Below are positions 62,884 through 64,000 of a DNA stretch of 64,000 nt, piece after piece. This DNA is from Fictibacillus solisalsi (lineage in GTDB: Bacteria; Bacillota; Bacilli; Bacillales; Fictibacillaceae), in contig NZ_FNHW01000001.1 of the NCBI RefSeq assembly GCF_900103485.1, forward strand, positions 2,377,057 through 2,441,056, in the 5' to 3' direction. Both the position numbers and the translations under genes were made by a program. The first letter of the stretch is position 1. Each line of letters starts with the position of its first letter. The notes under the pieces were generated by a model. It saw only the letters and a list, made by a program, of their open reading frames with translations, was not told where the DNA came from and made no database searches.

Positions 62884-63163
62884 TGCATTCCTCCATTTTC
62901 AGAAAATTCAATCCTTTATTAAAGAGTAGCAACGATATACTGAAAAAGCCATGGAACGAAGGTCCCGTTCTCATTCTAGTCCTTTCCTATCTTTTGGAAG
63001 CCCCCTGTCGGAAAATCTAGTAAGCTGTAATCATTACCAAACTTTTTTCCTCCCCACAAATCAATAAAGCACGACTATTGTACCTGTTTTTTTTTAACTT
63101 TCCATACTATAATCTGAGAGTTATTATTTTCTAAATATAGTACAGGAGAAATGGAGGGTGGTT

Positions 63164-63574
63164 ATGATCAGCTGGCTTAAACGGAGAAAAACGAATATCA
63201 AGACCCATTCATCACCTGACATTGCTTCCCGTTCTTCTGCTGCAGCTCATCTGCAAACGAAATCCATTTCACCAGATAAGGAAATCGAACATTACAAAAG
63301 CAGACTTTTGCAATTTGGCATTAAAGTTTACGAGATGCCAAAGTTAACTCCCCAATCGAAGAAAAGCAGACTCGATGCCTACACCATAGCCTCATACGTA
63401 GCAAACAATACAGAACTTAAATCTCTTTTTCTTACAAAAAAAGGTCTGCCTGCATCCCAGCTTTCAGAAAAATTTCCAAGCAAGTCCATTAAACGATACA
63501 CCCCTTATATTATTGCTGTTGCTCTCATTATTATTGAAGATTATGACTATCTTAAAGGCTATTTGCCGGAATAG
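63164..63574 (+). CDS. Sigma-I C-terminal-domain-only protein
   Basis: 136 residues from ATG 63164, 6 nt after GGAGG. Residues about 40-136 align with the C-terminal third of B. subtilis SigI: LLQFGIKVYEMPKLTP, NNTELKSLFLTKKGLPASQL, SIKRYTPYIIAVALIIIEDY, LKGYLPE. The sigma-2 domain (about 140 residues in SigI) is absent and replaced by a basic, Ser-rich 35-residue N-terminus; no sigma-2 remnant is seen upstream. A -10 like TATAAT lies at 63108-63113. 12 bases before an rsgI gene, as full-length sigI would be. Confidence 0.82.
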   Translation: MISWLKRRKTNIKTHSSPDIASRSSAAAHLQTKSISPDKEIEHYKSRLLQFGIKVYEMPKLTPQSKKSRLDAYTIASYVANNTELKSLFLTKKGLPASQLSEKFPSKSIKRYTPYIIAVALIIIEDYDYLKGYLPE

Positions 63575-63586
63575 GAGGCCCTTACG

Positions 63587-64000
63587 ATGACAAAAGGAAT
63601 TGTGGTAGAAGTCAAACGGCACCACATCATCGTTCTATCTGAGGGCGGTGTGTTTCGCAAGGTGAAGAACAATGGACAGCTTTACGCGGTAGGAAGTGAT
63701 ATTCTCCTGCCTAATGAACCGAACCGAAACTCAATGTTCAGCCTTCCCGTGTTTAACTGGAAATCTGCAAGCGTGTTTACCTTTGCCATCCTCTTATTAT
63801 TTTTCCAGCTCGCACCTAATACTGGTCAAGGGGTTTACGCTTATGTAGGCATAGAGATGAACCCAAGCATCGAATTGTCCATCGATGATGACATGAGGGT
63901 TCAGCAAATTACTGCCTATAATTCGGACGGTAAAAAACTAGTTGCACTACTGGAAAATTACCATGGGCAGCCTCTTGAGAAAGTGACTGAGGAAATTTTC
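63587..64000 (+). CDS. rsgI: Anti-sigma-I factor RsgI, N-terminal part (runs off the window)
   Basis: 138 codons to the right edge; TAGGAGG 8 nt before ATG. N-terminal RsgI_N domain (MTKGIVVEVKRHHIIVLSEG), one membrane helix (about 64-82), then the extracellular start YAYVGIEMNPSIELSIDDDM typical for RsgI. It should hold a sigma-I-type protein inactive at the membrane; here its partner gene is the sigma-I C-terminal fragment just upstream. Confidence 0.9.
   Translation, partial: MTKGIVVEVKRHHIIVLSEGGVFRKVKNNGQLYAVGSDILLPNEPNRNSMFSLPVFNWKSASVFTFAILLLFFQLAPNTGQGVYAYVGIEMNPSIELSIDDDMRVQQITAYNSDGKKLVALLENYHGQPLEKVTEEIF

Follow-up and report, generated by a model that had tools for sequence, protein, structure and literature searches.

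A conserved RsgI-paired protein of Fictibacillus and its sister genus that has the SigI C-terminal domain without sigma-2: a candidate pseudo-sigma

Introduction

SigI and RsgI are usually treated as a sigma/anti-sigma module. Sigma mimicry, in which a sigma-like domain binds an anti-sigma and does not start transcription, is known from PhyR and NepR of the alphaproteobacteria. PhyR, on which PMC8103513 has a passage, is a response regulator whose sigma-like domain is N-terminal. The same paper treats SigO and RsoA of Bacillus subtilis, two halves that jointly start transcription. For SigI itself, the portion of PMC10575876 drawn on here shows that Lys170, His171, Arg172 and Ser174 of SigI6 contact the minor groove, with helix–turn–helix residues reading the major groove. 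Activity of SigI6 is abolished by H171S and is reduced, yet detectable, when His171 is exchanged for Arg (PMC10575876, same portion). RsgI and the beta-flap tip of RNA polymerase are described there as binding one and the same surface of the SigI C-terminal domain (SigIC). Here we describe a conserved gene pair in which an RsgI follows a gene encoding SigIC only.

Results

The window analysed is a stretch of 64,000 nt from Fictibacillus solisalsi (contig NZ_FNHW01000001.1, positions 2,377,057 to 2,441,056), the end of which harbours the short gene and the beginning of its rsgI-like neighbour (Table 1). The open reading frame listing places the short frame at 63158–63574, from a GTG; this in-frame GTG, two codons 5′ of the ATG, is not conserved among relatives, and the ATG at 63164 was taken as the start because a start of the form M(I)xxW is common to them. 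The signals that the initial annotation had read here, namely a −10 sequence, a Shine–Dalgarno site and close coupling to rsgI, are all present, the rsgI ATG lying 12 nt 3′ of the short gene in the source genome.

Table 1. Features of the short gene, its upstream region and its partner, in window coordinates
Feature	Position	Strand	Remarks
Conserved upstream element	63072..63076	+	CGACT here, TGACT in the other 24 genomes; starts 36 nt before the −10 hexamer
−10 hexamer TATAAT	63108..63113	+	TATAAT in 24/25, TATACT in G013; no good −35 at normal spacing
Conserved block 3′ of the −10	63114..63139	+	From alignment of 25 upstream regions
Shine–Dalgarno GGAGGG of the short gene	63153..63158	+	Read from the sequence; GGAGG conserved in the upstream alignment
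Short gene, 136 aa	63164..63574	+	ATG 63164, stop 63572–63574; basic Trp-containing N-terminus MISWLKRRK, low-confidence linker, SigIC at residues 37–136, no sigma-2
rsgI-like gene, first 138 codons	63587..64000	+	ATG 63587; runs past the window end; full product 595 aa (L003 8644–10431)

The claim that the 136-residue product matches only the C-terminal part of SigI, with sigma-2 absent, is borne out by profile searches. NCBIfam SigI models align only with residues ~20–136 and always through the C-terminal part of the profile (best match E 3.8e-21, profile positions 129–248 of 252), a restriction to the C-terminal part that applies to the window protein and to the three relatives checked. The sole PDB matches up to E 1 are the C-terminal parts of Clostridium thermocellum SigI1 and SigI6, and the profile match to PDB SigI C-terminal domains has an E of 6.5e-19. 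The window protein has no Pfam match up to E 1. Its scores against every NCBIfam SigI model, like those of six other short SigIC proteins, fall far short of the cut-offs, so that annotation pipelines are likely to misname or overlook such proteins.

An AlphaFold model built from 25 relatives has mostly high confidence across residues 37–136 and no confident structure for residues 9–31, the five models being unequal in quality (mean pLDDT 80.5 to 47). Its best solved match is 6ivu_B, which is SigI1C in the SigI1C–RsgI1N complex (Z 14.9, 105 residues, 2.5 Å), whilst the best unrelated chain reaches only Z 4.7. Predicted structure and sequence profile both place the short protein in the SigIC fold. 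The Trp of the basic N-terminus (MISWLKRRK or MIRRWFxKK) is invariant in 25/25 short forms, and this segment perhaps contacts the membrane or polymerase.

The partner is an RsgI and is intact, in keeping with the coupling first noted. In the source genome both RsgI_N and RsgI_M exceed the Pfam cut-offs, and both domains recur in 25/25 partners (RsgI_N at E 0.001 or better). In a model of the first 245 residues, a barrel at the N-terminus is followed by a helix of low confidence and then by the RsgI periplasmic domain, the last matching 8hdj_F of C. thermocellum RsgI2 (Z 19.6, 145 residues, 1.7 Å) and the RsgI of B. subtilis (Z 19.3). A fold search with the barrel returns 6ivs, the RsgI1 N-terminal domain, only among many small barrels; as a fold match at Z ~5 proves nothing alone, this domain is assigned by its Pfam match.

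The Asn–Pro self-cleavage site directly precedes the cleaved chains of known structure, such as 8hep_B and 8hdj_B, which start at the Pro. It is kept in six of the 25 partners, including that of the source genome, and is replaced in 19, by Asp–Pro (17), Glu–Pro (1) or Asp–Ala (1). All 17 ordinary RsgIs retrieved from 26 loci have Asn–Pro, which is a mild control given that the retrieval motif itself allowed N, D or E at the first position and P or A at the second. Loss of the site is no proof of lost signalling, since C. thermocellum RsgI8 also has no self-cleavage motif and blocked cleavage does not fully stop signalling in B. subtilis (both from part of PMC12203970).

With regard to conservation, a search of related genomes for the short form beside RsgI_N, as the initial annotation had proposed, recovered the pair in each of the 25 genomes sampled from two genera (seven Fictibacillus, 18 of a sister genus). 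The other nine sampled genomes of the family (one of genus g3, eight of g4) contain full-length SigI only, with no short form. Every short frame is open and is followed by an RsgI at a gap of +13 to −4 nt, and in both genera the pair occupies one syntenic place, 5′ of a potassium channel–YugN–Pgi–alcohol dehydrogenase block; the divergent copy of G007 was found by profile, not by tblastn. The two relatives found in the species collection, F. enclensis at 95% protein identity and F. fluitans at 86%, mark the source genome as a Fictibacillus. In one genome of the sister genus, G015, the ordinary full-length sigI is apparently broken in two frames (C11:462621–462913) and the short pair is intact.

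The short gene has a dN/dS of 0.18–0.40 in seven Fictibacillus pairs, which indicates purifying selection within that genus. A frameshift or assembly error hiding a sigma-2 domain, raised at the outset as a possible flaw, was looked for by a six-frame profile search of the 25 loci, in which no sigma-2 remnant was detected (best matches E 6.2–7.8, compared with ~1e-48 for control sigI loci). A tree was built from 33 of 35 full-length SigIs, two C. thermocellum SigIs, 13 of the 25 short forms, five of eight unpaired short forms and the G105 copy described below. In it the 13 short forms are a single clade (97/93), separate from the resident SigI of their own genomes; the exact place of this clade is unsure, the branches being long. 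A third sigI copy is found on contig 12 of G006 (L025/L018), its sigma-2 and C-terminal parts lying in separate frames owing to a frameshift, with no rsgI among the long frames listed around it.

Synonymous divergence of the short gene is about one-third that of its neighbours (0.23 versus 0.64–1.03 in nine of ten neighbouring genes, for G000/G002); its dN, by contrast, is not low. A nearby S1-domain gene also has low synonymous divergence (0.17, same genomes). Neither an overlapping gene nor an RNA was found to account for this, as there is no long alternative frame common to the genomes and no Rfam match near the gathering score.

Between rsgI and the potassium-channel gene lie a CotH gene, a Ser/Arg-repeat gene and a further gene (L003 10469–13238); we take the second to be CotG-like and its companion to be CotB-like. 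CotH and the presumably CotB-like gene are at the locus in six of the seven Fictibacillus. A spore-coat link for the pair was set aside: CotH follows it in 6/7 Fictibacillus and in 0/18 sister-genus loci, where the potassium-channel gene stands instead, and CotH adjoins the channel gene in G025 too, a family genome that does not have the pair.

For the residues with which SigI reads DNA, the reference set was 33 full-length SigIs (35 rows less two odd ones), in which 34 columns are at least 80% conserved. The threshold for a kept column was 20 or more of the 25 short forms, and contact columns were those named in the portion of PMC10575876 cited above. None of the nine conserved contact columns is kept, versus 16 of the 25 other conserved columns (Fisher P 0.0011, a guide only, with related sequences and columns treated as independent and drawn from two genera and one clade). 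The fraction of columns kept by the short forms is 0.22 at contact positions and 0.64 elsewhere, set against 0.62 and 0.59 in five divergent full-length SigIs used as a control. The equivalent of His171 occurs in 0/25 short forms versus 32/33 full-length SigIs, its position being taken by Glu (9), Asp (8), Ser (3), Thr (3) or Arg (2; G003 and G007), and Lys170 has an equivalent in 13/25. The minor-groove residues and recognition helix of SigI are largely lost from the short forms, and the short protein has no SigIN (sigma-2) domain, through which SigI contacts core polymerase and the −10 element. On these two defining features it is a homologue of the SigI C-terminal domain but not a SigI sigma factor.

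Tyr223, Ile224, Ala226 and Ile230, together with a Leu at position 238 and a Tyr at 241 (SigI6 numbering), are kept in 25/25 short forms. These hydrophobic positions of the last helices may serve the core, the interface or both, and as they may be hydrophobic core they are no proof by themselves of a kept RsgI surface. Several replaced contact positions are still basic (K, R) in the Fictibacillus short forms, and so DNA binding of another kind would be possible on sequence grounds. The DNA-binding regulator that the initial annotation had entertained is unlikely in a version with the specificity of SigI itself, most of the −35 contact residues having been lost.

Upstream of the short gene, the pattern [TC]GACT-N31-TATA[AC]T is present in 25/25 regions versus 5 of 10000 letter-shuffled ones, the regions being related and not independent. 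A generic sigma-70 promoter scan did not report the TATAAT, for which there is no fitting −35, and gave other weak patterns nearby (6 versus 2.2 in shuffles); the want of a good −35 suggests an activator for this promoter. A SigK/SigE reading of CATACTATA, judged by what we take to be the consensus, fits Fictibacillus only and has the wrong spacing (counted by hand), and a SigI-type promoter finds no match either, CGAC/TGAC not being the SigI CGWA. Within the source genome, the block around [TC]GACT has no second copy above control (besides the short gene, two three-mismatch matches, fewer than for the reversed-pattern control), and the block after the −10 has none within three mismatches.

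Elsewhere in the source genome, a full-length SigI, sought at the suggestion of the initial annotation, was indeed found: one ordinary SigI of 247 aa with its own RsgI (433 aa) lies 80 kb from the short gene, and RsgI_M occurs twice, once per pair. The SigI model gives 11 matches, with the full SigI at 250 bits, the short gene at 65 and the others at 40 or below. Sigma70_r2 gives 22, of which 19 exceed the cut-off; two of these lie in frames of fewer than 189 aa (L081 and L082), neither of them SigI-like, and for the other 17 the assessment used frame length and SigI-model score alone. The companion search, for a protein with SigI sigma-2 only, came back empty: by the SigI-model and Sigma70_r2 searches the genome holds no such gene of SigI type, and hence no separate SigI-type sigma-2 protein of the kind a two-part sigma would have.

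The two short frames were considered as sigma-2 halves and rejected. The 129-aa sigma-2 frame L081 (G000 C4:3411807–3415004) is absent from the 11 SigI-model matches. A region-4-like frame overlaps it, and this is likely a frameshifted ECF-like sigma gene. L082 belongs to a region (G000 C4:1921526–1924690; L063, L082) with an N-terminal fragment of ~154 aa that contains a run of N; this fragment, which we take to be sigK-like, may come from a sigK into which an element has inserted, as is known in other spore formers.

A wider census comprised an order search of 397 genomes and a class search of 398, with ~10 candidates scored per genome. Outside the family, the rows among the best matches listed are full-length SigI, and short forms elsewhere may be missed. 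Sixteen genomes outside the family with at least two order-search matches were examined individually, and single-match genomes by their listed rows only, so the following counts are a lower bound: one paired short form (G105), eight unpaired short forms (one in G336, three in genus g85, four in g24), five second full-length SigIs and two genomes with broken matches. G105, of another family, has a SigIC-only gene (L136) with an RsgI (577 aa) 28 nt downstream, apparently an independent sigma-2-less pair; its short form keeps the PKHxxSR motif, so not every sigma-2-less SigI has lost its DNA contacts. The unpaired genes (L135 and L137–L143, in G336, G173, G368, G129, G183, G376, G269 and G053) are open frames of 115–150 aa from three other families, with no RsgI found nearby, and the tree puts the five of them that it includes at two positions, both on long branches. 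Sigma-2-less SigIC genes seem to have arisen several times, paired in the two genera and in G105 and unpaired in three families.

A sigma-70 family gene lies near all four unpaired SigICs of g24 (L139, L140, L141 and L143; G129, G183, G376 and G053) and has a weak match (E 5e-7 to 3e-5) to the SigI sigma-2 profile. The two of these neighbours that were examined (G183 and G129) have both region 2 and region 4 and so are not sigma-2 halves.

Discussion

We tentatively favour the reading that the short gene encodes a pseudo-sigma: a SigIC domain, formerly of a sigma factor, that is now the dedicated cytoplasmic partner of the neighbouring RsgI and acts through protein contacts. The predicted SigIC fold, the absence of sigma-2, the loss of most DNA contacts, the retention of hydrophobic positions in the last helices and the pairing with RsgI in 25/25 genomes all point this way. 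The third idea of the initial annotation, a protein that engages or titrates RsgI, would be the best of its proposals left standing. By analogy with the solved SigI1C–RsgI1N complex, and from the pairing of the genes, the short protein is probably bound by the barrel at the RsgI N-terminus and kept at the membrane. The barrel would keep the SigIC cargo there until RsgI is cut (19 of the 25 partners being without the usual Asn–Pro site), whereupon the freed domain could act by protein contacts, either competing for RsgI in the manner of a sigma mimic or binding at the beta-flap tip; it would not itself start transcription. We infer that such a contact after release, with the beta-flap tip or RsgI, is more likely than DNA reading. 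More doubtful is the extension that this represents a second mode of RsgI action, in which a released pseudo-sigma acts on the beta-flap tip or on another RsgI and retunes sigma use, and which may be a recurrent and unannotated class in the Bacillales.

Amongst the alternatives, a DNA-binding regulator of changed specificity, freed by RsgI and using a remodelled helix–turn–helix on its own or other promoters without sigma-2, is unlikely. Basic residues do remain in the helix–turn–helix (SKSIKRYTP in the source genome, QKLTMKRQR in much of the sister genus), two of the 25 short forms have the Arg at the His171 position, and the invariant [TC]GACT at fixed −10 spacing, with no recognisable −35, resembles activator-dependent promoters. 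The minor-groove His is, however, gone from all 25 and little remains of the recognition-helix residues that SigI conserves, no regulon is visible in that the upstream blocks have no second genomic copy above control, and the helix–turn–helix differs strongly between the genera whereas the upstream element does not.

Somewhat less probable again is a decoy or anti-anti-sigma, by which the short protein would occupy the ordinary RsgI and free full-length SigI, as PhyR does towards NepR. In its favour, RsgI is bound in 6ivu by SigIC alone, a fold that the short form is predicted to retain; loss of DNA contacts with the fold retained is what a mimic needs, and the genome does contain an ordinary SigI–RsgI pair. 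Against this, the short gene has its own RsgI encoded alongside, with a cytoplasmic domain unlike that of the resident RsgI, making the neighbour the likelier cognate partner, and RsgI is reported, in the portion of PMC10575876 cited, to bind its cognate SigI specifically.

An improbable reading is that of a non-signalling cofactor, the short domain stabilising or shielding the RsgI N-terminus (for example from proteolysis) whilst RsgI has a structural or sensing role and no transcriptional output. It would suit the absence of sigma-2 and of DNA contacts, the loss of Asn–Pro in 19/25 partners, where the usual release pathway may be gone, and the existence of an RsgI with no assigned sigI, RsgI9 of C. 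thermocellum (part of PMC12203970). The partner in the source genome nevertheless keeps Asn–Pro, RsgI8 lacks the motif and B. subtilis signalling persists despite a closed site (same source), and the fixed spacing of the promoter element speaks for regulated expression.

Half of a split sigma-I with its sigma-2 half elsewhere, another of the initial proposals, has the B. subtilis precedent of SigO/RsoA (PMC8103513) and the 129-aa sigma-2-only frame L081 to recommend it, but is very improbable: L081 is no SigI-model match and adjoins a region-4-like frame, nothing else in the genome gives the score of a SigI sigma-2, and few −35 contact residues remain. A decaying sigI duplicate, to which the missing sigma-2 and the broken third copy in G006 might point, is scarcely credible for a gene intact in 25/25 genomes of two genera, with dN/dS well below 1, an upstream element at fixed spacing and a clade separate from resident sigI, and the first impression that this is not random decay holds.

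For the favoured pseudo-sigma, no report of a sigma-2-less SigI paired with RsgI was found among the titles and abstracts that searches of open-access literature listed, and we rate the pair as a variant of SigI–RsgI without an earlier report found there. Its conservation suggests that the sensing arm of RsgI can stay while the output is replaced. The pair also opens to test what an anti-sigma holds when there is no sigma, whether competition between the beta-flap and RsgI serves as a regulatory device, and whether Asn–Pro cleavage is needed.

Compared with the ordinary SigI–RsgI pairs of B. subtilis and C. thermocellum (SigI1–8/RsgI1–8), the locus has the same gene order, coupling and SigIC fold (6ivu, 8i23), and its partner likewise consists of RsgI_N, a hydrophobic helix, the RsgI periplasmic domain and a low-complexity tail. 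Unlike them, the short form has no sigma-2 and few of the SigIC DNA contacts, carries the basic Trp-containing N-terminus where sigma-2 would be, and in most genomes (19/25) is joined to an RsgI that has no Asn–Pro. With SigO/RsoA it shares the encoding of one sigma region without the other; those halves, however, function together in initiation, whereas here no SigI-type second half was found and the −35 reading residues are mostly gone. RsgI9 and RsgI8 of C. thermocellum similarly depart from the ordinary pair or from self-cleavage, but RsgI9 has no assigned SigI and RsgI8 sits in an ordinary pair, and no sigma-2-less partner is described in the part of PMC12203970 cited. A further likeness, which we infer, is to PhyR and NepR, with the difference that a SigIC domain, coupled to the membrane protein RsgI, would here serve as the mimic.
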